Source: a virus. From it: 64,000 nt of DNA. Below the pieces are notes generated by a model. That model saw only the letters and a program-made list of their open reading frames with translations. It did no database searches and was not told the origin of the DNA. The stretch covers positions 56,831 to 120,830 of IMG/VR virus record IMGVR_UViG_3300012204_000007, one strand, 5' to 3'. This document shows positions 12,647 through 39,438 of the stretch, piece after piece. Positions within the stretch are counted from its first letter, which is position 1. The number at the start of each line of letters is the position of its first letter. Both the position numbers and the translations under genes were made by a program.

Positions 12647-13876
12647 ATGGAATTAGTAAAGAGCCATTGGGAAGCGGATGACAACCGCATCCATCTGTCA
12701 ATGCCCATTTCAAAGGTGGACCGCCAGAACCGTTTGGTTTCCGGATTTGCAACCCTTGATAACATTGATACTTCTGATGAGATAGTTACCGCCGAGGCCA
12801 GCCGAGCAGCGTTCACACGTTTCCGTGGAAATGTTCGTGAAATGCATGAGCCGATAGCCGCCGGTAGAGTAGTTGATTTCAAAGAAGATTCCTTCTATGA
12901 CTCTAAAACTGAAAAATATTATAGTGGCATTTATGCAACAGCATATATTTCGCTAGGAGCCGAGTCAACCTGGCAGAAGGTCCTAGATGGAACCCTGTCC
13001 GGCTTTTCTATTGGTGGCAGCATCAAGGAGAAGCATGTAGAGTATATTTCAGAATTAAACAAAAGTGTTCGATTCATTACTGACTATGACCTGAGTGAAC
13101 TATCTCTGGTAGACAGTCCGGCCAACCAATTGGCAAATGTATTCTCAATCGTAAAGTCGGCAGATGGCGTACTTATGAAGGGTATGGCCTCAGAAGTTCA
13201 CCTAGTCAATGTTTTTTGGTGCGCAGCAGATGAAATCGCAAAGAACTCTTCGGGAGAATCAGAGACATGTCTGCACTGTGGAAAGACCATGGAGCAGATT
13301 GGTTGGTTTGAGAAGGGCAGCGACGAAGTGGTGAAGACCGCTAAGACCGTCGCAGACTTCCTTCGCAAGAGGGAGGACAATGTCGCAATAGACGTACCCG
13401 CACATGGCGAAGGGGGTGTAAAAATGACTGAAGATATTAAGAAGAATGCTGATGAAGAGGTAGTAGAAGTTGCTACCACCGAGGAAGTTGTTGAGGCAGA
13501 AACTGATGGCGTTGAAGCAGCAGCCGTAGAGGTTGTTGAAGAGGCAGCCGTAGAGCCTGACTTCGAGAAGATGTTTGATGATTTGAAGGGTTCTGTAACC
13601 GACAGCATCAACAAGACCGTTGAGGCGGTAGAGGCAAAGGTGAGTGCAGCAACAGCGGCATTTGATGAAAAGGCTTCTGAGTTTGAAAAGTCTCTTGGAG
13701 AACTCAGCGAAAAGTTGGAGTCCATCAGAGAGCAGCGTGAGAATGTTACAAAGCGTTTAGACGCGCTTGAGAAGGCTTCTGCTATTAAGAAGTCCGGTGA
13801 TGTTGAAACTACTGAGCCGGTAAAGAAAGCAAAGACAGGATTGTGGAGTGGCGCTTTCTTCGACGCTGGTGAATAA
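12647..13876 (+). CDS. Prohead protease fused to scaffold domain
   Basis: The N-terminal ~170 residues resemble the capsid maturation serine proteases of HK97-type phages (XkdF/S78 group). A candidate catalytic His lies in VREMHEP, a Ser in GTLSGFSIGGS, and LSELSLVDSPAN follows. Residues ~185-230 hold a CLHC-type cluster. From residue 260 the protein is acidic and alanine/valine-rich, with heptad-like helices, as in scaffolding proteins. It would shape the prohead and then cleave the scaffold. An internal start at 13424 could make the scaffold alone. The gene precedes the capsid gene, the usual order. Confidence 0.85.
   Translation: MELVKSHWEADDNRIHLSMPISKVDRQNRLVSGFATLDNIDTSDEIVTAEASRAAFTRFRGNVREMHEPIAAGRVVDFKEDSFYDSKTEKYYSGIYATAYISLGAESTWQKVLDGTLSGFSIGGSIKEKHVEYISELNKSVRFITDYDLSELSLVDSPANQLANVFSIVKSADGVLMKGMASEVHLVNVFWCAADEIAKNSSGESETCLHCGKTMEQIGWFEKGSDEVVKTAKTVADFLRKREDNVAIDVPAHGEGGVKMTEDIKKNADEEVVEVATTEEVVEAETDGVEAAAVEVVEEAAVEPDFEKMFDDLKGSVTDSINKTVEAVEAKVSAATAAFDEKASEFEKSLGELSEKLESIREQRENVTKRLDALEKASAIKKSGDVETTEPVKKAKTGLWSGAFFDAGE
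13424..13876 (+). CDS. Putative scaffold protein from an internal in-frame start
   Basis: ATG 13424 lies in the same frame as the protease gene (codon 260) and is preceded by GAAGGGGGTG at 4-5 bases, a much stronger ribosome site than expected by chance inside a gene. The product would be a 150-residue acidic coiled-coil protein. Phage lambda makes its scaffold Nu3 the same way inside gene C. Inference from position and signal only. Confidence 0.6.
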   Translation: MTEDIKKNADEEVVEVATTEEVVEAETDGVEAAAVEVVEEAAVEPDFEKMFDDLKGSVTDSINKTVEAVEAKVSAATAAFDEKASEFEKSLGELSEKLESIREQRENVTKRLDALEKASAIKKSGDVETTEPVKKAKTGLWSGAFFDAGE

Positions 13877-13969: not shown

Positions 13970-15004
13970 ATGAGTGATACTCTTATTGAAAAGGTTGTGA
14001 CAACCGGTGGTATGCAGGGTACAAACCCTGTCGGTACCGGCGCACTAACCTATGCACAGGCTGACAAGTTCATTGACTACATGTGGGACTCAACAGTACT
14101 AGGTTCCCTAGTTACTACACGTCGTATGAAGGCTGTCGAGGAAGAGATTGATACAGTTGCCGTTGGCGCGCGTCTTGTACGTGGTGCTACAGAGGCTGTT
14201 GACACTGGTGAGAACGCGCTTCCTACCTTCGGCAAGTTGTCGATTACCACCAAGAAGTACCGTCTAGACTGGGAACTTTCTAGTGAGTCTTTGGAGGACA
14301 ACATCGAGGGCGAAGCCTTCGAGGACCACCTTGCACGCCTTATGGCTACACAGTTGGGTAACGACCTAGAAGACATCGCCATCAATGGTGACACAACCTC
14401 TACCGTTCCCGGTATTAAGGTGGACGACGGTTGGAGGAAGCGCGCCGTTGCAGGTGCTCACGTTATCGACCACGCTGGTAACTTGCTTAACCGCGATGCA
14501 TTCAACAAGTCTCTTAAGGCTATGCCACGTAAGTACATGGCCAAGAGAAACGGGTTGAAGTTCTTCACTGGTACCAACGCAATTCAGGACTACATCTACT
14601 CTCTACAGCAGGTTGAAAGCAACTTCGTTAATCCGGAGGCGCTTGCTGCTGCTGGTATTAACCAGGCTGTACGTACTGAGGGTCCTGCTGGATTCATTAC
14701 TGGTAATGCGTTCGGGCAGAAGGTTCAGGAAGTTCCGCTATTCCTAGAGGACCGTGACGGAGACTATGACACCAACTCGTCTACTTCTGGTATTCAGTTG
14801 CCATCTGCGTCTATCAACCACACCGACCTATGGTTGACCTTCCCAGAGAACCTAATCTGGGGAATCAAGCGTGACGTAAAGGTTTTCCGTGAGTTCAAGA
14901 TTAAGAAGGACACCGTTGAGTACACAGTCTTCACCCGTCAGGGCGTACAGATTGAGAATCTCGATGCATTCGTTGTTCTAAAAAACGTCCGTCTGGCTGC
15001 TTGA
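13970..15004 (+). CDS. Major capsid protein, HK97 fold
   Basis: This 344-residue protein sits directly after the protease/scaffold gene and has features of HK97-type capsid proteins: a helical N-terminal arm, an E-loop region (ALPTFGKLSITTKKYRLDWELS), a spine helix (FEDHLARLMATQLGNDLEDI) and P-domain strands. It forms the icosahedral shell. The ribosome site AGGAGGTGA is the strongest in the window, and codons favour C-ending synonyms, as expected of the most abundant protein. There is no large N-terminal delta domain, consistent with a separate scaffold. Confidence 0.9.
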   Translation: MSDTLIEKVVTTGGMQGTNPVGTGALTYAQADKFIDYMWDSTVLGSLVTTRRMKAVEEEIDTVAVGARLVRGATEAVDTGENALPTFGKLSITTKKYRLDWELSSESLEDNIEGEAFEDHLARLMATQLGNDLEDIAINGDTTSTVPGIKVDDGWRKRAVAGAHVIDHAGNLLNRDAFNKSLKAMPRKYMAKRNGLKFFTGTNAIQDYIYSLQQVESNFVNPEALAAAGINQAVRTEGPAGFITGNAFGQKVQEVPLFLEDRDGDYDTNSSTSGIQLPSASINHTDLWLTFPENLIWGIKRDVKVFREFKIKKDTVEYTVFTRQGVQIENLDAFVVLKNVRLAA

Positions 15005-15025: not shown

Positions 15026-15059
15026 CTACCGGCGGCTATCCTAGGATAGCCGCCGGTAG
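15026..15059. repeat. 34-bp perfect palindrome after the capsid gene
   Basis: The 17-bp arms meet at CCTAGG with no spacer. The outer ends are CTACCGGC and GCCGGTAG, so it contains one copy of the polar heptamer on each strand. It may act as a terminator hairpin after the capsid gene, but no U-run follows (CATTATTATG). A symmetric protein site is an alternative. Confidence 0.8.
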
Positions 15060-15109: not shown

Positions 15110-15556
15110 ATGAGTTTTCAGAGTTTAAAGGTCGCTGAGTTGAGAGGGGTCGCTGAATTTTTCAATATTGATGTTGTAACAGCAGACCCATCAACAGAGG
15201 CAACTAAGAAGGAGTTAATTGCGGCACTCGCCGCCGACGCCGAGCCGGTAACCTGGCAGCAGTACAATGATATTTATTTGCCAGCGAAGGAACTAGAGGC
15301 AGCAGCACAGGTAACAGAGAATGTAGAGCCTGATGTAGTTGTAGAGCAGCCGGAGCCAAAGGTAGTAGACCCTAACCAAAAGACTGTGCTTATTAAGTAC
15401 GGGCGACAGAACCCAACGTTTGAAGTTCTTGGGTTTACATTCAGCAAGCGCCACCCATTCGCTTCCGTTCCGGAAGACGTAGCAGAGCATCTAGTTAGAA
15501 ACGTTACCGGTTTTAGACTAGCACTACAATCAGAAATCACCGACTACTACGGCTGA
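15110..15556 (+). CDS. Head-associated protein with SAP/HeH-like N-terminus
   Basis: This 148-residue protein begins with a short helix-extended-helix pattern (SLKVAELRGVAEFFNIDV ... TKKELIAAL), as in SAP/Rho-N type domains. An acidic, proline-rich linker follows, then a compact C-terminal part (TVLIKYGRQNPTFEVLGFTF). Similar proteins occur next to capsid genes, where they may decorate the shell or join the tail. The ribosome site is AGAGGATAATT. The exact role is not established. Confidence 0.65.
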   Translation: MSFQSLKVAELRGVAEFFNIDVVTADPSTEATKKELIAALAADAEPVTWQQYNDIYLPAKELEAAAQVTENVEPDVVVEQPEPKVVDPNQKTVLIKYGRQNPTFEVLGFTFSKRHPFASVPEDVAEHLVRNVTGFRLALQSEITDYYG

Positions 15557-15595: not shown

Positions 15596-15820
15596 ATGGA
15601 AGACAATACTAAGATAGGCGTAGACGAACTTGTGGTACTAAGCAAGTTCGAAGGCGACCCTCTTCCAGAAAATGAGTTTGAAAGACTTACTATTCATAAT
15701 GGTATTGTTGAATCACATTGCCGCGTTGAAGGTGGCATGCTCGTCGGGCCGGTATTAGCAGATAACCTCGTAGGAAAAGATATTGGTACCCTTATGTCGC
15801 ACGATGGGGAGGTAAACTAA
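15596..15820 (+). CDS. Hypothetical small protein, head region
   Basis: This 74-residue acidic protein looks strand-rich (FERLTIHNGIVESHCRVEGG). No family is recognised. It is predicted to be leaderless and shares one base with the next ATG (TAATG), so the pair is translated together. Its location suggests a structural or decoration role. Confidence 0.65.
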   Translation: MEDNTKIGVDELVVLSKFEGDPLPENEFERLTIHNGIVESHCRVEGGMLVGPVLADNLVGKDIGTLMSHDGEVN

Positions 15821-16200
15821 TGCCTATTACAGACGCAGGAAGAAATCATCTATGCCAGGCTGGCATCGGCGCGGCGGTAACAGCATTTAACAATGCTAAT
15901 GCTTATATTGGTGTTGGAGACTCATCAACTGCATTTGCAGCAGCACAGACAGACCTACAGGCTGCATCTAACAAGTTGCGCAAGGCTATGGACGCAACAT
16001 ATCCATCCGGCGGAAGCAATGTGCTCACATTCAGGTCCACATTTGCTACCACAGACGCAAACTTTGCTTGGGCAGAATGGGGCGTGTTCAATGCTTCATC
16101 AGCCGGTACCATGCTTAGCCGTAAGGTTGAAGCACTAGGAACAAAGACATCAGCACAGACTTGGCAGTTCACTGTCGTTTTGACTGTCACGACCGCGTAA
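15820..16200 (+). CDS. Small structural protein with a tail-fibre-type N-terminal domain
   Basis: This 126-residue protein has the pattern AYIGVGDSST ... TDLQAASNKLRKAM ... FRSTFATTDANFAWAEWGVFN. The same layout appears in the N-terminal part of the gene at 33672 (SVGIGDTAATLNDTRMQFEF ... KIYEVGIW). Both resemble a domain common in phage fibre or decoration proteins. Here the domain stands alone, perhaps as a decoration or head fibre. Confidence 0.6.
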   Translation: MPITDAGRNHLCQAGIGAAVTAFNNANAYIGVGDSSTAFAAAQTDLQAASNKLRKAMDATYPSGGSNVLTFRSTFATTDANFAWAEWGVFNASSAGTMLSRKVEALGTKTSAQTWQFTVVLTVTTA

Positions 16201-16207
16201 TAGTAGA

Positions 16208-16447
16208 TTGCCAGAGCATCCAAATGCTCGTGGCAAAAAATATGTTTTAGAACATATTTATATAATGTCTGAAAGCCTAGGAAGGCCAATTGATACTAAA
16301 AATGAATCTGTACATCACATCAATGGCGACCATGGGGACAATAGATTAGAAAACCTACAATTGCGAAAGCGCTACCACGGCAAGGGCCAGAAATGGCAAT
16401 GCGGAGATTGTGGAAGCCATAACATTCTTGCATCAGAACTAGCATAA
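16208..16447 (+). CDS. HNH endonuclease (small, likely mobile)
   Basis: This 79-residue protein has VHHINGDHGDNRLENLQ, the core of the HNH_3 type found in intron-type homing nucleases, and a C-terminal CGDC pair. It would cut DNA with a metal ion. The start is TTG 16208 without a clear ribosome site; the DNA-reading domain expected in full-length relatives is absent, so it may be a minimal or decaying copy. It sits between two structural genes. Confidence 0.75.
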   Translation: MPEHPNARGKKYVLEHIYIMSESLGRPIDTKNESVHHINGDHGDNRLENLQLRKRYHGKGQKWQCGDCGSHNILASELA

Positions 16448-16497: not shown

Positions 16498-16547
16498 ACC
16501 GCCCCACGGGAACCGTCTTGGCGTTCCCGTGGGGCGGTATTTTGTTT
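16498..16547 (+). terminator. Strong terminator just upstream of gene 16561, possible attenuator
   Basis: A 16-bp perfect GC-rich stem (16498-16513 with 16523-16538), a 9-base loop and ATTTTGTTT follow the promoter at 16428-16456. Only 22 bases separate the stem from the next ATG, whose ribosome site AAAAGGAG begins right after the U-run. Confidence 0.85.
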
Positions 16548-16560
16548 AAAAGGAGTAATT

Positions 16561-18693
16561 ATGGCTATTGCACAGCGCGGTTCAACAACGACCGCCACGG
16601 GCACATCGACCGCGCCCGCTGCTGCCAAGCCGACTGGCACTATCTCCACCGATATCGTTATTTTCACTGTCGCCGCAGCGGGCGGCGGAACCTTCACGCC
16701 ACCGACTGGCTACACGTCGCTGTACGACACATCGGCTACAGTCACCAACCCCAAATTGCACGTCTGTTATCGAGTGTGTGACGGAGGGGCGAACGACACG
16801 CCATCTGGTGCCACCCTCACTACGTCTGTCGCGTGGAGTGCGCAGGCAACGGCGTTCTCAGGTGTCGACAACACTACTCCGTGGGAAACTGCGGTCTCGG
16901 CAATTGAGTATTCAGCGACTACGACTGCATGTATTGCTCCCAACGTTCCTGCGGGAGCAACCGGTAGATGGATTGTTGGCGGGGCGTCAGGAAATAGTTC
17001 GACAACAACATGGACTCCACCGACTAGCCCGAGCACATGGTCTGAGTTGTACGACCCAGGAGCAGGCAAGTCGCACACATTTGCTGTTCTTGCATCCAGT
17101 AGCGCTGCAACATCACCGACGTTTACGCAATCCGCTGCCAGAGCAGCGGCAGCATGGTCTGGTTCCCTATTGCCTGACGCTGGTGGCACTGTATCTAAGT
17201 CTGCATCCGATACATCAAGCATAACTATTACTGAGTCTAAATCACTAGACTCATCATCTACTAGTGCAGATACCGCTTCAATAGCGATATCTGATACATC
17301 GCAGTCACAAAGCACTTTGTCAGCGGCCGACACTGCTTCAGTAGCAGTCACAGATTCTTCATCGGTAGGCATTATAACTGATAAATCCGCTAATGATACA
17401 TCATCAATAGCAATAGCAGACTCTTCGGCGGTAGCCATACTAAATGTATTGTCTGCATCCGATACATCATCCATTAGTATTGCAGAAGCCAAGACATTAG
17501 CGTCGTCTAGCACGAGCACAGACACTGGCTCCTTGTCAATATCAGAATCATCAAGTGTATTTGTTGCTATCTCAGCCAGCGATACTAGTTCCATTTCTAT
17601 TGCAGAGTCTACTGATATTCAAACGGTCCTGTCAGCGAGCGATACAGCATCTTTATCTATTGCTGATACGTCATCGCCCGATGTTCTATTGTCTAGAACA
17701 GATACAGCCAGCGTCTCAATTGCTGAGTCTAACTCGATACTTACGACAATCTCTGTATCAGATTCGTTCGCCGTATCTATTGCCGAGGCAAAGTCGCTAG
17801 CAGGCTCAAGCACAAGCACAGATACAGCCTCTGTGTCTGTCTCTGAGACCGCTGCAATTACAGTGGCACTATCTGCCGCCGACACCAGCGCGATTACTGT
17901 GAGCGAAACCTCATCGGTCTCAGGCACCATGTCCGCCACAGACACAGCATCGATTGCGATTGCGGATGCCTCTGCTACTGCAATACCTCTATCAGCCACA
18001 GACACCAGTGCAATATCTATTGCCGAGACCACAGACACTGTTGTTGGCGGCGTGACTGATAAGGCTGGGACAGATACAGCATCGATTGCAGTTTCTGAGA
18101 CTACAAATGTAGTACAAATATTGTCCGCATCTGATACTAATGGGTTGCATGTCGATGAGACGGCGGCGGTAGTATCAACATCTGCAAGAACAGAATCCGC
18201 AGCAATATCAATTACTGAGTCTGTTGCGGTTCTAGTAACACTATCAGCAAGCGATACGTCTAGCATTGCTATATCAGAGTCAGCAACACAGACTATTCTT
18301 ACATCTAAGTCTGCTGTAGATATGGCATCAGTCTCTATCAACGAGGCCGTGGGAGTTACAGGAACCGTTTCTGCTTCTGATACCGGAGCAATCGCTGTAT
18401 CAGAAAATACTGAATCATTTGTTCAGAGCGGTTCTCAAGACACCTCTGCAATCTCTATATCAGAGCAGTCGAGCGTAGTAGATATTGATGCTCTCCCACA
18501 CGATGTTTTTGCATCTGATGAGAGTTCTATCAGTATCTCAGAGTTTAGAAAGTTGAATAACCTGAACGCTCCGGAGACAGAAGTACATATTGAAACCACT
18601 TCCGGTTCAAGTTCTGGTAGGTTTGCATCAAATACTGAAAGTGCTATAATGAGTCATATAGAAACTTCTATAAATACTAATGTTAGGTTGTAG
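16561..18693 (+). CDS. Serine/aspartate repeat surface protein
   Basis: This 710-residue protein has two parts. Residues 1-~210 form a GC-rich-coded beta domain of a type seen in phage virion proteins (TPPTGYTSLYDTSA, AWSAQATAFSGVDNTTPWE). Residues ~212-665 are 22 tandem repeats of about 20 residues with core SASDTSSISIAES. The last ~45 residues are unrelated. The regular acidic/Ser/Ile pattern fits extended beta-structure. It lies between capsid and connector genes, so a head fibre or decoration exposed on the virion is likely. The ribosome site is AAGGAG. Confidence 0.8.
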   Translation: MAIAQRGSTTTATGTSTAPAAAKPTGTISTDIVIFTVAAAGGGTFTPPTGYTSLYDTSATVTNPKLHVCYRVCDGGANDTPSGATLTTSVAWSAQATAFSGVDNTTPWETAVSAIEYSATTTACIAPNVPAGATGRWIVGGASGNSSTTTWTPPTSPSTWSELYDPGAGKSHTFAVLASSSAATSPTFTQSAARAAAAWSGSLLPDAGGTVSKSASDTSSITITESKSLDSSSTSADTASIAISDTSQSQSTLSAADTASVAVTDSSSVGIITDKSANDTSSIAIADSSAVAILNVLSASDTSSISIAEAKTLASSSTSTDTGSLSISESSSVFVAISASDTSSISIAESTDIQTVLSASDTASLSIADTSSPDVLLSRTDTASVSIAESNSILTTISVSDSFAVSIAEAKSLAGSSTSTDTASVSVSETAAITVALSAADTSAITVSETSSVSGTMSATDTASIAIADASATAIPLSATDTSAISIAETTDTVVGGVTDKAGTDTASIAVSETTNVVQILSASDTNGLHVDETAAVVSTSARTESAAISITESVAVLVTLSASDTSSIAISESATQTILTSKSAVDMASVSINEAVGVTGTVSASDTGAIAVSENTESFVQSGSQDTSAISISEQSSVVDIDALPHDVFASDESSISISEFRKLNNLNAPETEVHIETTSGSSSGRFASNTESAIMSHIETSINTNVRL
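17194..18558 (+). repeat. 22 tandem ~60-bp coding repeats
   Basis: Each unit encodes about 20 residues around S-x-S-D-T-x-S-I-x-I-x-E. Three units share a longer tail close to SLASSSTSTD (near repeats 1, 5 and 10), and two share a TDK insert. This suggests duplications of multi-repeat blocks. The units have drifted at DNA level while keeping the protein pattern. The repeats also create long reading frames on the other strand, which are not genes. Confidence 0.85.
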
Positions 18694-18718: not shown

Positions 18719-19684
18719 TTGAGCGAGATTAATATTGGAACCAGCCAGTTCGTATATCTTGATTTGTACGGCGGTACTGCCGACACGCTTCCAACCGCGA
18801 CGGTAACGAATGACCTTGGTGTATCTAGGTCATTGGTAGTTATACAGGACACCTTGGTCGGCACAATGACAGACCGCTATCGCGCAACCCTGAATATGGC
18901 TGACACCCAAAGAGAAGGCGAACTTCAAGTAGATTGGTCATTGACGGTAGATACCGTTCCGGTAACCAAGACTGACTATTTTGAAGTTATTACACCCTAT
19001 CTTACATATGGCGAAGTCAAGGAAATTTGGCCTAATGCTACTGATGCTGAAATAGCAGAGGTCGAGGCGGCGGTACGATTCGTTATTAATGCTCATACCG
19101 GCCAGACGTTCGGTTTTGCATCTAATAAGACCATTGTTGTTGAGGGGCACGGAGATAACTCTCTGCGTCTCCCATCTAGACTAGTAACATTGACAGGATG
19201 GTCGACACTTACAGCCAACCTTGACCCTAATGCCGTAATCATTGTAAGCGATGGATGGTATCTGAAAAAGGCTTGGGCAGACGAGTTATCCCAAATTACT
19301 AGTACATCAACCTATTGGACCGGATGGGATTCAGTTAATAGTGCTGCTCCTGGTGAGCCTGGATATGAGAAACCAAGCCATGGTCCAGTTATATCAGCAC
19401 CGGGAACTAGCGGTATATCCACACCCTGGCGTGCTGGTTATCCATTTACTATTGTTGGAGACTGGGGATATAAGACAGTACCAAATGTAGTTAGAGCAGC
19501 GGCTCGCCTATTGGTTAATGATTATGCATGTCAAGAGATTGCATATCGAGATAGATACCTAGAATCGGTTAAAGCCGCCGATTGGAGACTACAGTTCTCT
19601 TCCCGAGCATGGGAATACACCGGCAACGTTAGGGCAGACCAACTTCTATCTGAATTTGTATTGCTAGATTGGGCGGTAATCTAA
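18719..19684 (+). CDS. Head-tail connector (gp6-like) with N-terminal Ig-like domain
   Basis: This protein has 321 residues. The N-terminal ~95 look like a beta-sandwich (FVYLDLYGGTADTLPTATVT). The rest contains a helical head-tail adaptor pattern (YGEVKEIWPNATDAEIAEVE ... VINAHTG) and an ending helix bundle (AARLLVNDYACQEIAYRDRY), as in gp6-type connectors that bind below the portal ring. The start is taken as TTG 18719, because the N-terminal strands require it and no ATG lies nearby. Confidence 0.75.
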   Translation: MSEINIGTSQFVYLDLYGGTADTLPTATVTNDLGVSRSLVVIQDTLVGTMTDRYRATLNMADTQREGELQVDWSLTVDTVPVTKTDYFEVITPYLTYGEVKEIWPNATDAEIAEVEAAVRFVINAHTGQTFGFASNKTIVVEGHGDNSLRLPSRLVTLTGWSTLTANLDPNAVIIVSDGWYLKKAWADELSQITSTSTYWTGWDSVNSAAPGEPGYEKPSHGPVISAPGTSGISTPWRAGYPFTIVGDWGYKTVPNVVRAAARLLVNDYACQEIAYRDRYLESVKAADWRLQFSSRAWEYTGNVRADQLLSEFVLLDWAVI

Positions 19685-29622: not shown

Positions 29623-30089
29623 TGGCTGGATGGAAAGATAACCCGATTATGACCTGGGCCGGTACAAAAGTGACCGAGCACGGTAGGGCTCCATTGTCAC
29701 AAAGTACAGAACGCATCGGTACTGATAAGCGTATGGCTGATGGTACCCTTCGTCGCCAATTTGTTTCAACTAAGCGCTCGTGGCAAGTTTCTTGGGAAAA
29801 CATTCCTAGCAGGAATAATATATCTGGTGCAATTACAACTGCCGATGGCGGTATGTCTGGTACAGACACTGAGGCATTCTACAATGCTAACCACGGTTCA
29901 TTTAGAATGATTCTAAGGCGCGGTAGCGCAATTAATATAGCAGACCCAAACCCAGCAGAGTCAGCGCTCCCATATGAAGATACTAACTTCTACGTTGTGA
30001 ATGTAATGATAACAGACTTTAGCAAGGAGGTTCGCAAGCGCGGCAAGGTGGACCTTTGGGGTATGTCTGTTACGCTTGAAGAGGTATAG
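29622..30089 (+). CDS. Distal tail / minor tail protein
   Basis: This 155-residue protein starts on the last base of the tape measure stop. The pattern (RRQFVSTKRSWQVSWENIPS ... GSFRMILRRG ... VVNVMITDFS) suits the small distal tail proteins that follow tape measure genes and form the hub at the tail tip. Assigned by place and strand-rich composition. Confidence 0.65.
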   Translation: MAGWKDNPIMTWAGTKVTEHGRAPLSQSTERIGTDKRMADGTLRRQFVSTKRSWQVSWENIPSRNNISGAITTADGGMSGTDTEAFYNANHGSFRMILRRGSAINIADPNPAESALPYEDTNFYVVNVMITDFSKEVRKRGKVDLWGMSVTLEEV

Positions 30090-33000
30090 TGAAAACTAAT
30101 AGCACAGTAAGAACCTCTATTACAAATAACTTAAGCGTTGATATTGGGACGGTCCTAAATGCCGAATGGCAGATGAACCGTTTCTATAGGACGGCGGTAG
30201 ACAATACTCCGACCGAGGATAGCGAGGGCTATGATATTGAGTACTTTCCAATTGAGTCTATTACAAAAGCGAACCGCCCCAAGGCCGGTATTATCAAGGC
30301 TGTTGTAGGACAGGCTGTTGTTGATACAGAATATCATGATGCCGTACCGCCAGCCCGCTACTATGTAGTAAGCCATAGCGACGTATACAAGTATTGGCAG
30401 TCACCCTACAGTGCAGCACCAAGCACATTCCTGCTTACTACCTGCAAGCCTCAGGTCACCTATGTTGAAGAGAACCAAGTTTCGGGAGCAGATGTACCTC
30501 GTACTGTAAACGCAAATAAGATTTACTTTACTATTGAAAATACGTATGCGTATCCAACTGAGATAGACGTTCAGATTAAGACAACTACAGGCGGAGCATG
30601 GACTACTGTCGCTAGTGAAGTAGATTTTACAATTGGTCCGGGCGGTAAAGTAGAACTATGGTACACGGGCTCAGGTTGGACAAGCACCAAGAACCTAGCC
30701 AACTCAACTACGATATCTGCCGTACGCCTGCTTGTTAATAAGATGAACAAGGAGGCTTACTTCAATCTTATTGAGTTGGGTGTGTCTTTAGAGTTGGACT
30801 TGTCACCTGACATGGTTTCTTGGAATGATACATTCTCTATGGGAGAGTCAGACTTCATTACTCCGCTTGGTCAGATTTCATCTAACTCTGGTCAAGTAGA
30901 GTTGTTCAACGATGCCGGTAAATACTCAAATACTAACTCTGGCAGCATCCTATATGGCTTACTAGACAAGGGAGTTATCTTCCGATGCTGGACCAAGTAC
31001 GGCGCGCAGTTAGTTCAGGAATTTGAAATGTTCTCAGATACTTGGGAGGGTACCGACGACTCGGCAACAGTTGTGCTGACAGATGGAACTAAGTTCTTTA
31101 TGGATGAAAAGCCTGGCGCGGTAATGTATACAAACATTTCAGTCCAAGAGGCGATTTGGCGTATATGTGACGTTATCGGTTTTAACAATTATAAAGTCAC
31201 AGCCATCGACTCGACGCCGCATTCTATGATAGATATTTTCTGGACTGACGAAGAGAAGACCGCATGGGAAATCTTTGGTGAACTAGCGAGAGCAACCCAA
31301 ACCGCTATCTACTTTGATTCGTTCGGGGTATTGCAGGTAAAGACTCGTGGCGTTGCATGGGATGATACCAGAACTGTAGATTATGATTTTATTAGAAACA
31401 GCGTGGCAGGCGGCCAGCCCTCAAATATTGTATCTCTAACAGAAGAAACACAATATGAAGCAAACAAGGTCACCATCAACTGGCAGCCAACAGGTTTCTC
31501 AGAAAGAGTAGATAATATTGTCCCGTTTGAGGTCGTATGGGAACCAGATAACGCTGTTGTATTGCGCGCGACCGAACTAGGAAAGAACTTCCTAATTGGA
31601 GATATGACTTTGAACCTTCCTCTCAAGGAGGGTTCTACCTGGCCATGGAACGGTTATGCAAATATTGAGGGTGAGTTCATACAGTTTGATGCCAAGCGAT
31701 ATATTTATTATAATGCATCAGGAGTTAGAACTTCGCAGTGGGTAGTAGATTATGAAACTCAAAAGAGATTTGATGAGACCACATCTGCATCAAACATACA
31801 TCTAAACCATTATACCGGTGAGTTACGTGTGAAAGAGCGCGGCCTGTGGAACACAGAAGAAAAGAACCACCGTGTCGATATGAATGGTTGGACCAGCCGT
31901 CGTAAAAGGAATTATGGAACGGCCAACTCACCATGCTCTGGTGTTCGACTACATGCTGCCGAGTCTCTAGTTAGAGTCTCTGGACCTAAAACCTTAGATA
32001 TGGATGATTACACATATCTAACACATGGCGCGGCGGTAGACCAAGGATATTACTACCTTGGAACGTCTATGCGTATTGATAAGACTGCTCATAAGGATAA
32101 ATGCGGCGGTATCTTTTTCCATGGCGCCGATGGTTACGGTACTGGATACTTCCTTGAAATTATGACTACCTCTCGCATGAGTGCAAAGATGCGTCAGTAC
32201 AGAAACGAAGTATTATTCTACTCAATGAAGTCAGACGGTACCAAGAAGCACTATGGTGGCATGGAGGTTGTTCTAAAGGACAAGTCGAAGACAAATAATA
32301 ATGGTGCTACTACCAATCTTGACGTTGGTGCGCGTATGGCTATTATCGAAGATAGATTCATAGATTTTGATATCTGGTTCGAAGTGCTTGGGAATAATGA
32401 CCATCGTATACAGATTTGGGCCAACGGACATTACTTGTTTGAGGCTATAGTTCCTTCTGGTTCTGGTTGGCAGCACGCGCGCTCCGGGTTGGTCGGGCTA
32501 TATGCACGTGGACAGTCAAGCCTTTCATTTGATTATTTTTATGGAATTAATAATCTTGGTGTCGACCCTATCGATGCTGAGCCATATTTTGACCGTATTG
32601 ATGGGGCATACCGTGGCGACCAATCTCTGGGAGATTGGGATTATGAAGTCCGAAAGGTACGTCGAAAGATTCGCAATAAATGGACTAAGGTCAAGTCTAA
32701 GTACAACCAGAGATTTATGGAAGAGTTCGGGCCGGTAGTTCATGAAATGCGTAGATTTGATGTTAAGTTTACTACAGAGACACCAGTTCTAGAATCTAAA
32801 CTATACTTCTCTAATACAACTCAGGCTCTATGTAGTGAGTTTAGTGGAAGCATTAGCGGCGCCGAGTTCGTCATGACAAACAAACACCGCCAGAATGCTA
32901 TTATATCCGGTGATGATGAACGCACTACTATGGGTAATGGAACTATTAATCATAAACTGTTTGTTTATGGTCGCCCAGTCATCCAGAAAGATGCTCGTCA

Positions 33001-33310
33001 GATTACAAAAACTGATGACTGGTCACAGCGTCGACGTGGTGTGATAGATATTGAATATAATTCACAGTGGATTCAGAACGAACAAGAGGCCAATAGATTC
33101 GCAGATTGGCTGACAACGCATTGGTCTCGTAGCGACACCACATTGAATGTTGAAGTATTTGGTAATCCTCTGATAGAGATTGCCGATGTAGTCAATGTTA
33201 CCTACCGCCACATTAACAGTAAGTTCTATGTGATTGGGATAAACAATACCTGGGACAATGGCCTACAGACCCAACTGACACTGCGTAAAGTATCTACAGC
33301 ACTAGTGTAG
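30089..33310 (+). CDS. Large minor tail protein / tail tip hub with LamG-like insert
   Basis: This 1,073-residue protein starts at GTG on the last base of the previous stop. The N-terminal half has the strand-rich layout of tail-associated hub proteins. Residues ~640-840 form a jelly-roll-like insert (GYYYLGTSMRIDKTAHKDKC ... HRIQIWANGHYLFE ... GLVGLYARGQSSLSFDYFYG), which may bind host glycans. The C-terminal part returns to hub-like strands (NPLIEIADVVNVTYRH). It is the likely centre of the tail tip. Confidence 0.75.
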   Translation: MKTNSTVRTSITNNLSVDIGTVLNAEWQMNRFYRTAVDNTPTEDSEGYDIEYFPIESITKANRPKAGIIKAVVGQAVVDTEYHDAVPPARYYVVSHSDVYKYWQSPYSAAPSTFLLTTCKPQVTYVEENQVSGADVPRTVNANKIYFTIENTYAYPTEIDVQIKTTTGGAWTTVASEVDFTIGPGGKVELWYTGSGWTSTKNLANSTTISAVRLLVNKMNKEAYFNLIELGVSLELDLSPDMVSWNDTFSMGESDFITPLGQISSNSGQVELFNDAGKYSNTNSGSILYGLLDKGVIFRCWTKYGAQLVQEFEMFSDTWEGTDDSATVVLTDGTKFFMDEKPGAVMYTNISVQEAIWRICDVIGFNNYKVTAIDSTPHSMIDIFWTDEEKTAWEIFGELARATQTAIYFDSFGVLQVKTRGVAWDDTRTVDYDFIRNSVAGGQPSNIVSLTEETQYEANKVTINWQPTGFSERVDNIVPFEVVWEPDNAVVLRATELGKNFLIGDMTLNLPLKEGSTWPWNGYANIEGEFIQFDAKRYIYYNASGVRTSQWVVDYETQKRFDETTSASNIHLNHYTGELRVKERGLWNTEEKNHRVDMNGWTSRRKRNYGTANSPCSGVRLHAAESLVRVSGPKTLDMDDYTYLTHGAAVDQGYYYLGTSMRIDKTAHKDKCGGIFFHGADGYGTGYFLEIMTTSRMSAKMRQYRNEVLFYSMKSDGTKKHYGGMEVVLKDKSKTNNNGATTNLDVGARMAIIEDRFIDFDIWFEVLGNNDHRIQIWANGHYLFEAIVPSGSGWQHARSGLVGLYARGQSSLSFDYFYGINNLGVDPIDAEPYFDRIDGAYRGDQSLGDWDYEVRKVRRKIRNKWTKVKSKYNQRFMEEFGPVVHEMRRFDVKFTTETPVLESKLYFSNTTQALCSEFSGSISGAEFVMTNKHRQNAIISGDDERTTMGNGTINHKLFVYGRPVIQKDARQITKTDDWSQRRRGVIDIEYNSQWIQNEQEANRFADWLTTHWSRSDTTLNVEVFGNPLIEIADVVNVTYRHINSKFYVIGINNTWDNGLQTQLTLRKVSTALV

Positions 33311-33311
33311 T

Positions 33312-33339
33312 TTGCAATATAGCCCTATTGCGCTATAAT
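33312..33339 (+). promoter_or_regulatory. Promoter TTGCAA-N16-TATAAT for a leaderless gene
   Basis: The -35 is at 33312-33317 and the -10 at 33334-33339. The ATG at 33346 follows after 6 bases. It opens the fibre gene group. Confidence 0.8.
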
Positions 33340-33345
33340 TAAATC

Positions 33346-33675
33346 ATGGCCACTGATATTTATAGAGACTTCGACCCGAACTTAACAATTCCAATCGGAT
33401 TGAAAAACACTCGTATCTCAATGCTACCAGATGTTCAGCAAGACCTAGCGGAGCCAGATGCAGATATTGATATTCAGGAAGATACTCTATCAGATGATGA
33501 TAGCCAACTCGATGAAGACGAAGTCGGAGACGAGTTGGATGTTCCTGGGTCATTTACAATAATATCTCAAACTGTTCGCACTGCGCCAGACGGTAATCAA
33601 GTTGTTGATATTGTTATTGATGTTGAAGAGGTTACCGGTGCAGTTAAATACGAAATTAGGATAGTGCCAGCATGA
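33346..33675 (+). CDS. Small tail protein: acidic linker plus half a fibronectin III domain
   Basis: This 109-residue protein has a very acidic middle (EDTLSDDDSQLDEDEVGDE). Residues ~67-109 (PGSFTIISQTVRTAPDGNQV, then a strand ending VKYEIRIVPA) look like strands A, B and C of a fibronectin type III fold; the rest of that fold is missing here but appears at the start of the gene at 34510. The last 4 bases overlap the next gene. Confidence 0.7.
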   Translation: MATDIYRDFDPNLTIPIGLKNTRISMLPDVQQDLAEPDADIDIQEDTLSDDDSQLDEDEVGDELDVPGSFTIISQTVRTAPDGNQVVDIVIDVEEVTGAVKYEIRIVPA

Positions 33676-34508
33676 TTACAGCAGCAGGTAAGACATTTAT
33701 AAAAAGATACCTAGCCGGACAGGCTGGCACTATGGTTGGTGCTATGTCCGTTGGTATTGGCGATACCGCCGCGACTCTTAATGACACTCGCATGCAATTT
33801 GAGTTTGCGCGCGTACCTGTTGCTGTTATTGACTATGATTTTGTAAACGACCAGTTGATTTTCAAAGGCACTCTTGATGAAGAGATTGAAGGTAAAATCT
33901 ATGAGGTCGGCATCTGGACGGCAGAAGTAAACTCAGCGGCCGGTAACCAAGAATCTAAATTGCTTACATCCTTTGATTCAGCAACAGAAGACTGGGGCGT
34001 AGAGACATTTGCTTCAACTAATACTCGTATCGGTGTAGACTCTATGCGTCACACGCCAGTCTTGTCTACTACCTCATCCAATATTCTAACAGGAATCACT
34101 TTAGACCTGATTGACTATTCATCATTGGATACTTTCGTACTTGCTTATTATGTGGCGAACTCATTCACAGCCAATATCAAGGTGCGTATTCGCACCGACT
34201 CTAGCAACTACTATGAGTTTACTGTGACCTCTCCTACTACTGGTTACAAGTTCTCCACCTTCACAAAGGGCTCAGCCACCGTAGTTGGTGCCCCATCATG
34301 GGCCAATATCAATGAAATTGAGATTAGAACAACCGCTACCGCAGGCGGTACCGCATCTGTTGATTATGACGGACTACGTATAGAAGATGTAGACTCTGTA
34401 GCACCAGAGTATGGTCTTGTTGCTCATTACATTCCAAGCGTGCCGGTAGTCAAATTGGAAGGAATCGTGCAGGATTTTGAATATGCCCTGCCGGTAACTA
34501 TTAGTTAA
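33672..34508 (+). CDS. Minor tail protein with fibre-type N-domain and carbohydrate-module-like C-domain
   Basis: This 278-residue protein begins with the pattern SVGIGDTAATLNDTRMQFEF ... KIYEVGIW, shared in outline with the gene at 15820. Residues ~100-240 form a beta-sandwich resembling carbohydrate-binding modules (SFDSATEDWGVETF ... VKVRIRTDSSN-like strands ... SVDYDGLRIEDVD). It is likely part of the receptor-binding apparatus. It sits between two genes whose ends look like two halves of one domain. Confidence 0.65.
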   Translation: MITAAGKTFIKRYLAGQAGTMVGAMSVGIGDTAATLNDTRMQFEFARVPVAVIDYDFVNDQLIFKGTLDEEIEGKIYEVGIWTAEVNSAAGNQESKLLTSFDSATEDWGVETFASTNTRIGVDSMRHTPVLSTTSSNILTGITLDLIDYSSLDTFVLAYYVANSFTANIKVRIRTDSSNYYEFTVTSPTTGYKFSTFTKGSATVVGAPSWANINEIEIRTTATAGGTASVDYDGLRIEDVDSVAPEYGLVAHYIPSVPVVKLEGIVQDFEYALPVTIS

Positions 34509-34509
34509 T

Positions 34510-37500
34510 ATGTCAAGATTATCTTTACTAGGTCTAACACCTGGCACTAACTATAAGATACAACTTCGCGCTGTAGAAGGCGACCAAGTTTCTGAGTGGA
34601 GTCGTAGATTTGACCTTGCTACTTCTATAGATGTTACACCACCAGACGTTCCCGCGTGGGCGGTAAGCAACGACTGGGTGGTCAATGGTGACACATTTGT
34701 TGCTACCTGGCAGCCGCTTAACTTCACACTTATTCAGAATAAGGACTTTGACCATTATGAGATTGAGTTTGATGATACTGTTTCACAGACGGTAATCCAC
34801 ACAAATAACATCTCAGAAACATTAGACTTTGAGCATAACCGTCAGTACTTCGGTACCGCTAAAGCCGTAGTGAAGGCTCGTGTTCGTTCTGTGGATGCCG
34901 TTGGAAACGCCTCTGCGTGGAGCGCACAGAAAACTGCTACAAACCCAGCACCGTCGGCGCCAGCCTCTATCACTGTCACGTCGCTTTATGATTCTATAAA
35001 GGTCAACTGGGCGACGGTATCAGATACTGACCTTATTGGATACAAGGTACAGGTATCGACAACCTCGTCATCTTCTGGATTCTCTGACATTTACAACGGT
35101 CCAGATAATATGTTCATTCACGATACTATTATGTTTGTGACTGACCATTGGTTTAGAGTATACGCAGTAGATAAGTTTGGCAGTCTTTCTACCGCCACAA
35201 CGTCTGGTAGCGTGCGCCCAAAGACCTCTTTCGCAATTGATGGGGTTCCGCCTGCAACTCCTGCAACACTTACCGCTACCGGCGGTTTTGATACAACTAA
35301 TCAGCAGTCATATTTTGACTTGTCGTGGTCGAGCGTTGCCGATTCAGACCTAGATGTATATATCATCAGATATGGAACAAACGGTACTAACTGGGAGTAT
35401 GTCACTGTACCTCGTGAGAACACAACATACAGGCTCTCTGTAGACCCATCAAAGAGTTATTATATTGCTGTTACCGCAAGAGACCTCTCTGGCAACCTAC
35501 AGACTACATATCGTAATGCTTCTGTATATCCAGTTACCTCTACTGCTGACACATCTGCGCCATCGCAACCAGCAGCACCGACAGTAGCATCTAATACACT
35601 ACAGGCTCAGATAGTGGTATCTGGAAACAAGCAGGCCGGTGGTGCTATGGAGCCTGATGTTTCATTCTATGAAATATATGCAGGAACTAGCGCCGGGTTC
35701 ACTGCCAATAATGCATCGATGCTCGGACAGATTGCGACAGGTCCAGCGATGGTATCAACATTTGATATTCCAGCATCAGGAGCATCGGGCTCAAACCAAA
35801 CATGGTACTTCAAAATTATTGCTGTTGACCGCGCCGGTAATAAGTCTTCTGCATCACCAGAAGTCACTAGCAGCGTCAACCTAGTAGCCACCACAAACAT
35901 CGGTGACCTTGTTGTTACCAATGCTAAAATCAACGACCTTGCTGTAAACAAGTTGACCGCTGGCTCCGGTATCATTAACAACCTTATTGTCAAGAGCACA
36001 TTGACGCTAGGAGATGCGAGCACAGACGGTATCATTCAGTCATATGACTATGTGGCTGCTACGACTGGATTTAAGTTACAGAAGAACGCGCTAGAAATTA
36101 ACTCTGGAACTATTAGAGCAGCGGCATTGGCACTGCAAATAGGGCACAACTTGATGCCGCCACTATATGCCGACTTTGAGGCTCCTGCTTCCGCATATCC
36201 AGCCAACCTGTCTACCGGTTCGCTGACTACATCTGCTTTTACCAGCGCTCAAGTAAAGTTTAACACTCAGTCTCTACTGATTACTAGCACCGCAGGCGCT
36301 GCACGTACATGGTATTTTGGTTCTAGCAGCACGGATTACAACATTCCATTGCAACCAACTACACGCTACATAATCTCTGGATATCTTTATAATGCTACCG
36401 GTTCGATTGTTAACGGATTCTTTAGTATAAAGCAGCAAGATGCGACAATCATAAATGGTGGTCTTAGTGCATATGCAAATACTGCGGGATGGGTTAGATA
36501 TCAGAATGTAATAACTACAAACTCTGCTGCAACATCTGGCGTTTTGTCATTTACGTTAAACAGCAATGCGACTTTCTATATAGATGGTATACAGATAGAA
36601 GAATCCACGAATGCAACTAACACTACGCCTTCGCCATGGTCGCCACCAGGCTCTACAACTATTAATGGTGCTCTTATTAAAACTGGTGCTATCCAGTCCA
36701 CCGCGCTGGCATTGGATGTTAACGGAGCGACTATCGCCGGTATTCCAGCATGGAAGATTGATACCTTAGGAAACGCTGTATTTGGTGATGCATTAATTCG
36801 CGGTAGACTAATCATGGGTATCACTGGTGACTATGAAAATTCTATCAGCCCAATATATGAGGCAGATGGTACAACCATTAAGGCTTATTACGAAGATAAT
36901 ACAAAATTATCTGGTATTGGCTCTATTCAGTCTTATAATTATTCACCTGGTGCTGCTGGTTGGGCTATTCGTTCAAATGGATTCGCTGAGTTTCTACAAC
37001 TAAAGGCCAATAGTATTTCAGCAGACGCTATCTATGCTGTATCCCCAGACAAATTAACTCCCGGTACGATGACGGCCGACCTCATCATTGGTACTAATAT
37101 TAGGGCAATTGAAAAAGATACGCTGTATATTACATCCAAGGCACGCACATCAAACGTCGCAACCTTGACGTTATCAACATCACATAGCCGATTGGTTGGC
37201 GACCAGATTCAGGTCAAACTAGACCAGACTGTGGCGGTCGATACCACATTCGATACGCCCGGTAGTACATTTGTTTCTATCACTGCGGTTACCGATACCA
37301 CAATCTCATATTCTAATACTGGCTCCAATGTTTCTGTGACAGCGCATGCAGGAGACTCTTATGTGTATGTAGAAGGACGCTCGGTTATAGTGTCACCAGA
37401 GGGAATCACACTATTCAATAATGATGGTGTCGGTAGAGTTGTTGACCTACCAACAGACCCATTATTACCAGCATATTTTGCTGGCGATGTAGATGCTAAC

Positions 37501-39438
37501 TCTCTAACTGTCCGCGATGACTTCTTGCTACAGGGAACTGGAAACGCTCTGGCTGCTGGTGGTATCTTTACTTTGAATGCAAGCATTGTCGCGCCGGTAG
37601 GCACACCAACATTAAGTTTCTCATATGACCAAGCACAGACATGGATGGATAATACTTTCTCCTCATGGAAGTCCGGATTATGGTATGACTCTGGTACATA
37701 TGTTACAACTAACGCATTCTTTGGTGGTCAGGCATTTGGCACGTCGGCGGGCGGTGCATTCCTGTTTAATAAAGCGATGGCAGACGATGCAATTCCTAAT
37801 GGTTACTCGCCCTATGGTCTTGTTAAAATTTCCGGTAAGTTCTTTGTACTCATTAATGACCAAACTGATGGTCTATGGAAGGTACGACGTTATGCCAGCA
37901 CGGGAACAGGCTTTGATACCCTAGAAACCACTCTGTTTACATATGATAGACACACGACCATGGGTTGTACCGCGACCGAATGGAAGATTGATGGATTCAA
38001 TGGTTCTGCTCTAAATGACCCAGTAATTGGTACCGATGGTACCGATATCTATATTGCTAGATGCGCCAAGGGCGGTAAGATTTGGGTAGCAAAGTATAAT
38101 GTTTCTGGTACATATCAGTCAGAAGTAACAACCAATATCACAGACAACCAAAATTTGAAATCATTGAATATTGGCACATTCGACTTTGCTGCCACCAGAT
38201 ATGTTATTTCTACTGAGGGAAATGCAACCAAGGTTGCTAAGAACTATGTTACCAACACTTCCGGCGCGCACCAAACAACAGAAACATGGGGAACGCCAGG
38301 CGACAGAAAGTTGTGGGGAACCTGTTATAATGGTACGCAGTTTGTAACGCTGACTCAGACCAATAGATTGTATTTCCACACAAGTGTTGCAAAGACCGGC
38401 ACGAATGTTTGGTATACAAAGGGTGCTTGGTATGACGGAAATAACAGTAGAACTGTAAACATCAGTGCTGTGTCTGGAAACGGTGTAACCACGACCGTCA
38501 CAACATCTACCGCTCATGGCTATGTTGCTGGCGATATTGTCTATATCGCATCATCGTTAGGTGCTGCACTTAACAGTATCTATCACACAATTGTTACCAC
38601 ACCGTTGACAACCACATTCACAGTTTCATCTAACTATTCTGGTTCTGCTGGTGCTGGTGGTACGGTTACCAATGAATGGGAAACCTCATTATCAAGTTAT
38701 GCGACCACTACGATTACACGTAGAGCCAAGATGACTGTGTCCGCAGGCACACTTCCTGCTGGAACTGGGTCTAACATTCCTGACCGTGCTAGATTCTACT
38801 TCTCTAATACCGCAGGCGGCGCTGGTTCGTATTATAGACAGGATAACACGAACGCCAGCAGCCAACAGACTTTCGCAACAGACCCTACCTTTTCTGGTTC
38901 TACTGGGCCACTAACCGCATTCCCAGCCGGTACGGCAGCCATCTTGCAGTCTAATAATGGAAAGATGAGCATTACTGCTGACGGATATGCACTGTTTGGG
39001 GCAAGTACAGATGTTACTGCATCTGCTGGAAACACACCACCTCTTAGGGTTGGTAATCCAGCAGGTTCACACTTCCGTATTGACGGAGATGAAATTCAAA
39101 GAATGCTAGATGATACCACAGTCGGGCCAATGAGCCTGAATGCAAACGGTGGCGGTATTCGTCTTGGCAGCACTTCTACCATTTTCAGTAAGATAAAAAT
39201 GGGAGTCGCAGATGTAAGTTCTAATGCTTCTAGCATTACCACTACCGCCCACGGACTGGGTGCCGCCCCGGATATCGTTATGATTCAACCAAAGAACGTA
39301 GGTGTGGCGAGGACTGCTCGTTGGGATGTCGCCGCCAGCGATTCAACAAACTTCCAACTTCTATGGAATAAAACTTCTGACGGAACACTACTTGCTTCCG
39401 CAGTGGTCAACTTTGTTTGGATTGCCATCTTGTTCTAA
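34510..39438 (+). CDS. Large tail fibre/receptor-binding protein with fibronectin III repeats
   Basis: This 1,642-residue protein starts mid-domain (LSLLGLTPGTNYKIQLRAVE, strands E-G of a fibronectin III fold). About four complete domains follow to residue ~460 (each beginning like TPPDVPAWAV or PPATPATLTA). Then comes a shaft with DLVVTNAKINDLAVNKLTAG, seen in host-specificity proteins, a jelly-roll near 540-720, and beta-rich regions. The conserved-looking tip (KMGVADVSSNASSITTTAHG) ends in hydrophobic strands. It probably forms the trimeric fibre that chooses the host. It starts 1 base after the previous stop and has a weak ribosome site. Confidence 0.85.
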   Translation: MSRLSLLGLTPGTNYKIQLRAVEGDQVSEWSRRFDLATSIDVTPPDVPAWAVSNDWVVNGDTFVATWQPLNFTLIQNKDFDHYEIEFDDTVSQTVIHTNNISETLDFEHNRQYFGTAKAVVKARVRSVDAVGNASAWSAQKTATNPAPSAPASITVTSLYDSIKVNWATVSDTDLIGYKVQVSTTSSSSGFSDIYNGPDNMFIHDTIMFVTDHWFRVYAVDKFGSLSTATTSGSVRPKTSFAIDGVPPATPATLTATGGFDTTNQQSYFDLSWSSVADSDLDVYIIRYGTNGTNWEYVTVPRENTTYRLSVDPSKSYYIAVTARDLSGNLQTTYRNASVYPVTSTADTSAPSQPAAPTVASNTLQAQIVVSGNKQAGGAMEPDVSFYEIYAGTSAGFTANNASMLGQIATGPAMVSTFDIPASGASGSNQTWYFKIIAVDRAGNKSSASPEVTSSVNLVATTNIGDLVVTNAKINDLAVNKLTAGSGIINNLIVKSTLTLGDASTDGIIQSYDYVAATTGFKLQKNALEINSGTIRAAALALQIGHNLMPPLYADFEAPASAYPANLSTGSLTTSAFTSAQVKFNTQSLLITSTAGAARTWYFGSSSTDYNIPLQPTTRYIISGYLYNATGSIVNGFFSIKQQDATIINGGLSAYANTAGWVRYQNVITTNSAATSGVLSFTLNSNATFYIDGIQIEESTNATNTTPSPWSPPGSTTINGALIKTGAIQSTALALDVNGATIAGIPAWKIDTLGNAVFGDALIRGRLIMGITGDYENSISPIYEADGTTIKAYYEDNTKLSGIGSIQSYNYSPGAAGWAIRSNGFAEFLQLKANSISADAIYAVSPDKLTPGTMTADLIIGTNIRAIEKDTLYITSKARTSNVATLTLSTSHSRLVGDQIQVKLDQTVAVDTTFDTPGSTFVSITAVTDTTISYSNTGSNVSVTAHAGDSYVYVEGRSVIVSPEGITLFNNDGVGRVVDLPTDPLLPAYFAGDVDANSLTVRDDFLLQGTGNALAAGGIFTLNASIVAPVGTPTLSFSYDQAQTWMDNTFSSWKSGLWYDSGTYVTTNAFFGGQAFGTSAGGAFLFNKAMADDAIPNGYSPYGLVKISGKFFVLINDQTDGLWKVRRYASTGTGFDTLETTLFTYDRHTTMGCTATEWKIDGFNGSALNDPVIGTDGTDIYIARCAKGGKIWVAKYNVSGTYQSEVTTNITDNQNLKSLNIGTFDFAATRYVISTEGNATKVAKNYVTNTSGAHQTTETWGTPGDRKLWGTCYNGTQFVTLTQTNRLYFHTSVAKTGTNVWYTKGAWYDGNNSRTVNISAVSGNGVTTTVTTSTAHGYVAGDIVYIASSLGAALNSIYHTIVTTPLTTTFTVSSNYSGSAGAGGTVTNEWETSLSSYATTTITRRAKMTVSAGTLPAGTGSNIPDRARFYFSNTAGGAGSYYRQDNTNASSQQTFATDPTFSGSTGPLTAFPAGTAAILQSNNGKMSITADGYALFGASTDVTASAGNTPPLRVGNPAGSHFRIDGDEIQRMLDDTTVGPMSLNANGGGIRLGSTSTIFSKIKMGVADVSSNASSITTTAHGLGAAPDIVMIQPKNVGVARTARWDVAASDSTNFQLLWNKTSDGTLLASAVVNFVWIAILF

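Follow-up and report, generated by a model that had tools for sequence, protein, structure and literature searches.

A 20-residue repeat protein in an exchangeable slot among the head genes of an actinophage is most likely a surface fibre

Results

A repeat protein outside existing family models

What does a phage do with a long serine- and aspartate-rich repeat protein encoded among its head genes? In the window analysed here (64,000 nucleotides, part of a 120,830-base virus record that we call G000; related virus loci carry the prefix L), an open reading frame on the plus strand at 16561-18693 begins with ATG, is preceded by AAGGAG and encodes a protein of 710 amino acids, W (also P0001), with the coordinates first given for it in an earlier note on this DNA. 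W comprises an N-terminal, apparently beta-rich domain of ~205 residues (16561-17178), 22 repeat units (17197-18564) and a C-terminal tail of ~43 residues (18565-18693). This tail differs from the W-x-G motifs that close most relatives: such a motif forms the C-terminal end in five of them and is absent from W. Neither Pfam nor PHROG holds a model for W or its 20-residue repeat, in agreement with the statement in the earlier note that the repeat has no described function.

Searches by tblastn with whole W and with its N domain found no relatives among cultured phages, in IMG/VR or in GTDB genomes, and low-complexity masking is the likely cause of the blindness of this search to the repeats. 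A degenerate DNA scan for the repeat also found nothing and missed even the repeat gene of L044, probably because serine has two codon sets. As tblastn gave no relatives, these were sought instead through the major capsid protein (MCP; 71 loci) and through the 126-residue companion protein encoded upstream of W (79 IMG/VR loci). Two long minus-strand frames lie opposite the N domain and repeats (16767-17594, 275 residues; 17619-18341, 240 residues) and most likely arise from the codon composition of the repeats.

The repeats have the register of beta strands

The units follow the 20-residue consensus (L)SASDTSSISIAETSSVxVx. A regular expression found exactly 22 of them and a composition-controlled profile scan returned the same count, so that the repeat number first proposed is borne out by two separate scans. 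All 21 spacings between units are even (sixteen of 20 residues, three of 22, one of 24 and one of 26), and the mean pairwise identity of the units is 36%, compared with 12.3% (sd 0.5) for shuffled residues. Conservation is strongest at a few positions: Asp at position 5 (21/22 units), Ile, Val or Leu at position 9 (22/22), Ile or Val at position 11 (22/22) and Glu or Asp at position 13 (22/22). Hydrophobic residues occupy 87/220 odd positions compared with 20/220 even positions (p 5e-14); this alternation, together with spacings that change by two, is as beta-strand register demands. The even-step rule is strict only in W, and odd spacings occur in the other repeat proteins (21 is common in L118). 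The region is acidic (56 D+E versus 9 K+R) and rich in Ser, Thr and Ala, with few aromatic residues.

AlphaFold modelling of units 5-13 with 13 aligned sequences, which follows the suggestion in the earlier note to model the repeat, gave one strand stretch of ~16 residues per unit (mean pLDDT 71, pTM 0.63). Comparison of this model with PDB structures gave no significant match, and the best neighbours were mostly beta-solenoids. Among viral structures, its best neighbour belongs to a phage (E 3.4e-3), and 'curlin associated' proteins of phages are among those that follow. Such phage proteins of the curlin type and other beta-solenoids (BFVD 'Curlin associated', A0A6J5QLN7; E 3e-3 to 0.1) resemble the model but have low sequence identity to W, which has no curlin Pfam match, and none reaches E 0.001. 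From the model we infer that the repeats may stack as a solenoid-like rod. If one unit corresponds to one 4.8-angstrom rung, our arithmetic gives a stiff beta-solenoid-like rod of ~10 nm for the 22 units. Known repeat classes were also compared with W: no Pfam hit to curlin or RTX beta-roll (GGxGxDxUx) repeats was found, and the consensus SASDTSSISIAE differs from these; a staphylococcal Sdr-type protein is not indicated either, as W has no SD dipeptide run and no LPXTG, and its unit spans 20 residues with Ile/Val strands.

An old array behind a foreign N-terminal segment

Tandem Repeats Finder detected no DNA tandem array in the gene. Codons are identical between units at a frequency of 0.373, compared with 0.350 (sd 0.013) expected from codon usage, and synonymous sites between units are near saturation. 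As this agreement is at the level of codon usage, the array is ancient and has been maintained by selection acting on the protein. The lack of a DNA array and the near-saturated synonymous sites rule out slippage or block duplication in the recent past, and the block duplications proposed in the earlier note are thus visible only as old echoes at the protein level: units 1/5/10 and 2/6/11 have K(S/T)L..SSTS(T/A)DT in common.

The same note had described the first ~600 bases as GC-richer than the repeats and suggested a mosaic joined near 17170. The GC content of the N domain is indeed 0.58, above every 205-codon window of the phage's other genes (mean 0.459, sd 0.023, maximum 0.515), and at fourfold sites it reaches 71/145 compared with 1693/5544 in other genes (p = 6e-6), with the repeats equal to the genome. 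However, only codons 1-120 (16561-16920) exceed the expectation for their amino acids (GC 0.597 versus 0.516, z 5.5), whereas codons 121-205 do not (z 0.1). The step at 17170 is therefore an amino-acid effect, a codon-usage join at that position is ruled out, and the mosaic stands with its border moved to codon 120, near 16920. Such a foreign segment makes it plausible that the first part of the N domain was exchanged. In L044, L080, L084 and L088, third-position GC differs little between N domain and repeats.

W occupies a swap slot between capsid and adaptor genes

The virus is a soil-type, Streptomyces-phage-like (Stanwilliamsviridae-like) actinophage. Its genes run in the order portal, protease, MCP, a small protein, two small companion ORFs, an HNH fragment, W, head-tail adaptor, tail tube and tape measure, all features of the slot lying on the plus strand. 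The slot is anchored by the MCP (13970-15004; phrog_1623/phrog_10; 64% identity to the MCP of Streptomyces phage Coruscant) and bordered downstream by the adaptor (18719-19684), whose homologue is annotated as head-to-tail connector/adaptor in Coruscant, Comrade, Muntaha and Dorin. A terminator-like hairpin follows the MCP gene (15026-15059; 15 pairs, 10 of them G-C), as it does in L002, L003, L005, L081, L084, L088 and L118. Next come a conserved small head-region protein (15110-15556; phrog_9487), which is kept with or without slot cargo, a companion ORF of 74 residues (15596-15820) with related ORFs in L036 and L044, and the 126-residue companion (15820-16200; phrog_23653). Eight bases past the companion gene begins an HNH endonuclease remnant (16208-16447), of which only the C-terminal 79 residues are left (HNH_3 E 1.6e-8; 142-216 of 219 positions in phrog_20891); at the same place the endonuclease is full-length in L044 (167 residues) and L118 (172 residues). 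No evidence was found for an intein or intron effect of this truncated neighbour on the repeat gene; exchange may have been aided by this homing endonuclease, now decayed, at the slot's edge. Between the companion and HNH genes and the fibre gene lies a strong terminator-like hairpin (16498-16538; MFE -37.3 kcal/mol, z -6.9), followed by ATTTTGTTT. Its start, CCTAACCGCCCCACG, recurs in L085 just upstream of 7442, before the repeat gene, and a hairpin ahead of the fibre gene may be conserved. In L044, a 94-residue ORF without a PHROGs family match lies between the HNH and repeat genes (12729-13010).

Across the relatives, the interval between MCP and adaptor is either ~0.5 kb with one gene, as in Coruscant, LukeCage, Trina, Dorin and L010, or 1.7-6.4 kb with extra genes. 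Among distinct complete intervals, nine contain one small gene only, five contain a repeat protein and 12 contain an LtfC-like protein without repeat, 10 of the latter with a collagen-like fibre. The extra genes come in two kinds. One is a small LtfC-like protein, usually followed by a collagen-like fibre (Comrade, Muntaha, L059, L078 and others); in Muntaha and Comrade it matches PF23926 at E 1e-4 to 3e-4, just under the curated cut-off, and the LtfC-like protein also matches phrog_3304, 'L-shaped tail fiber protein assembly', at E 6.5e-10. The other is the 126-residue companion followed by a 20-residue-repeat protein, complete in W's own genome, L044, L084 and L088, and cut by the contig end in L036, L085 and L118; L080 starts at the companion. 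The companion precedes the repeat protein in L036, L044, L080, L084, L085, L088 and L118. Portal, protease, MCP, the 15110 protein, companion, repeat protein and adaptor form a recurring synteny. L081 has the companion, with its repeat protein further downstream, and L088 carries the small proteins of both slot kinds.

In the phage closest to ours, L009 (MCP identity 83%), the slot contains an alpha/beta hydrolase along with LtfC-like proteins, and in L010 (72%) it is empty. From their gene content, near relatives appear to differ by module replacement, not by a change of repeat number. Many relatives lack the slot genes, so the family can do without the gene.

The repeat recurs with different unit numbers

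The unit profile of W, scored against residue-shuffled versions of each target, found 20-spaced units in seven other proteins (L044, L080, L081, L084, L085, L088 and L118). Across all eight, 10 to 30 units were detected: 30 in L044, 28 in L080, 27 in L088, 22 in W, 21 in L081, 12 in L084 and 10 in L085. W itself has what marks the slot's 20-residue repeat family, namely 20-spaced units above shuffles, a place in the MCP-adaptor slot and a position after the 126-residue companion. The earlier expectation that repeat number varies between relatives thus holds for phages that share the slot (10-30 units) but not at close range: L009 and L010 lack the gene, and the near-identical contigs L088 and L089, the sole such pair, have the same array over 870 residues with one base differing. 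Scans for related loci with L044, L081 and L088 returned only these loci themselves and the L088/L089 pair.

By eye, L116, L123 and L130 have similar repeats, but these show no 20-residue spacing with the W profile, and we rejected them as members of the same family. Together with L105, L115 and L139, these loci encode companion-linked proteins whose Asp-Ser/Thr-Gly repeats, of other kinds, often span 17-21 residues as judged by eye (such as VSDSGSGSETLSLQIQI). Such companion-linked repeats are perhaps a wider stalk superfamily.

Slot fibres carry enzymes and lectin-like domains

A weak profile-profile match (P 3.8e-4) suggests that the N domain of W belongs, as a divergent member, to a family of domains with which the relatives' repeat proteins begin. 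Its structure model has low confidence (mean pLDDT 46) and does not allow a fold to be named; in Foldseek this low-confidence model matched phage proteins, among them GDPD-bearing ones from Clavibacter phage CN1A (E 3.6e-5) and Microbacterium phage ValentiniPuff (E 0.03). The repeat protein of L044 has a GDPD domain of its own (PF03009, E 1.2e-14), in the order N domain, one repeat, GDPD, a domain with a weak 3keto-disac_hyd match and a long repeat array. A tblastn search with its GDPD region found fibres of 949 and 1036 residues that occupy this slot in two cultured Streptomyces phages, Byblos and DekoNeimoidia; these GDPD-type fibres have stalks other than the 20-residue repeat. The best hint of function is that a predicted GDPD sits on two different stalks at the same locus. 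Teichoic acids are listed among the targets of enterococcal phage tail lysins in a survey that also mentions glycerophosphodiester phosphodiesterase (PMC10194240). Other slot fibres show L-type lectin matches (Comrade, Muntaha) or C1q (L078), and the alpha/beta hydrolase in the slot of L009 (12546-13253; PF00561, E 3.7e-8) is a further candidate virion-borne enzyme.

A likely surface fibre, probably on the head

Together, these data suggest that W is most likely an exchangeable surface fibre that grips the bacterium. Read from the sequence, its gene joins a predicted beta-rich N domain to 22 beta-forming units in a swap slot that elsewhere holds alternative fibre modules or is empty. The full proposal is a fibre on the virion surface whose rigid stalk of beta repeats carries an exchangeable domain for binding or degrading glycans; the fibre would probably be attached to the capsid and grip or trim wall polymers. 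This proposal seems to us about evenly poised between right and wrong. In this model, the rod would hold a glycan-binding domain (in L044, the phosphodiesterase) away from the particle, with the N domain either displayed by the rod or serving as its anchor to the particle, and the phage would grip or trim cell-wall teichoic acid or polysaccharide of its actinobacterial host. The fibre would be bound to the capsid, probably with help of the 126-residue companion; the terminator-like hairpins after the MCP gene and before the fibre gene would lower W expression, so that fewer copies are made of it than of the coat protein; and swapping the whole module, or the N domain alone, would change surface specificity.

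The long head fibre of the earlier note thus stands as a long repeat protein in the head-gene region, with its location on the head plausible from gene order. If W is a fibre, the genes around it make a place on the head fairly probable and one on the tail doubtful. The tail account, in which W is a lateral tail fibre whose genes lie beside the MCP gene by chance and whose companion is an attachment or assembly protein like LtfC, is unlikely. In DT57C, lateral tail fibres are held by a collar that LtfC forms (PMC10713586), and an LtfC-like protein (PF23926 and phrog_3304 matches) occurs in the alternative slot module; moreover, the companion weakly matches tail-fibre phrog_4176, and its homologues in Bacillus phage SP-15 and Listeria phage LIS04 lie in the tail baseplate cluster, between baseplate and adhesin genes. 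However, the tail tip and minor tail genes of our phage sit in their usual place after the tape measure (30089-39438), its genome record has no LtfC homologue by PF23926, and in every syntenic relative the slot lies within the head genes, ahead of those for adaptor and tail. The order MCP, companion, repeat protein is also found in L123, which has an MCP of another family (phrog_1357); as its repeats are not of the 20-residue class, L123 supports the gene order only.

It is improbable that W is instead a capsid decoration with a mainly physical role in particle spacing, anti-aggregation or surface charge, an acidic Ser/Thr-rich brush without specific receptor binding. The acidic, aromatic-poor composition of the repeats would fit such a brush, as would the aggregation of T4 at low cation concentration upon loss of Hoc (PMC7602432), but the slot fibres of relatives bear enzymes and lectin-like domains, and the foreign composition is in the N domain and not in the repeat, as expected for an exchanged specificity domain. 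More improbable still are repeats that form an intrinsically disordered linker, or an ORF that is the chance product of a low-complexity stretch. High Ser/Thr/Ala content and the lack of DNA-level similarity to known genes speak for these; against them stand a conserved protein with saturated synonymous sites, which means selection on the protein, the strict 20-residue spacing with strand alternation and a beta model, and the recurrence of the unit profile in seven other phages.

Comparison with known phage fibres

Known head fibres and decorations such as Hoc, pb10, gp12 and gp8.5 bind cells or glycans (PMC7602432). Like W in our proposal, which places it on the head by gene position, SPP1 gp12 and phi29 gp8.5 are long accessory proteins of the head with a link to cell-surface binding (PMC7602432); however, gp12 is collagen-like and gp8.5 an alpha-helical coiled coil, whereas W is neither and has no sequence relation to them that we found. 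No collagen match was found in W, and no G-x-y run of at least four triplets in the window's slot proteins, whereas many relatives have one. Hoc- or pb10-type decoration is likewise not indicated, as W has no Ig-like Pfam or PHROG match and only the weak beta-rich model of its N domain. The LtfC-LtfA module of T5 and DT57C encodes a small beta attachment protein before a long fibre, as does the alternative slot module, but it is tail-borne, and the W record lacks LtfC and has a companion of another family. Close counterparts of W are Comrade gp31, Muntaha gp26 and the Byblos and DekoNeimoidia fibres, which are also encoded between the MCP (+1) and the head-tail adaptor and combine a stalk with lectin or GDPD cargo; they differ in having a collagen-like or other stalk where W has the 20-residue repeat, and an LtfC-like protein in place of the 126-residue companion.

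Accessory cell-binding head fibres are thus already known, and what is new is the repeat without a Pfam or PHROG model. It merits a profile model, as low-complexity filtering probably hides it from standard searches. The slot turns one odd repeat protein into a comparable series across a large actinophage family, in which the interval after the MCP gene accepts, like a plug-in site, unrelated stalks (collagen-like or built of the 20-residue repeat) that bear lectin, hydrolase or phosphodiesterase domains. A new class of phage stalk, in which a 20-residue beta-solenoid repeat replaces collagen-like stalks and carries interchangeable wall-targeting domains, including phosphodiesterases, on the head, is a possible but tentative extension. 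If the fibres are head-borne, the group, which includes the cultured Streptomyces phages Comrade, Muntaha and Byblos, would have enzyme-bearing head fibres, which to our knowledge are poorly documented. The phage genome also encodes a glycosyltransferase (PF00534/PF20706; 4609-5544) and a metallophosphoesterase (phrog_221; 41441-42376).
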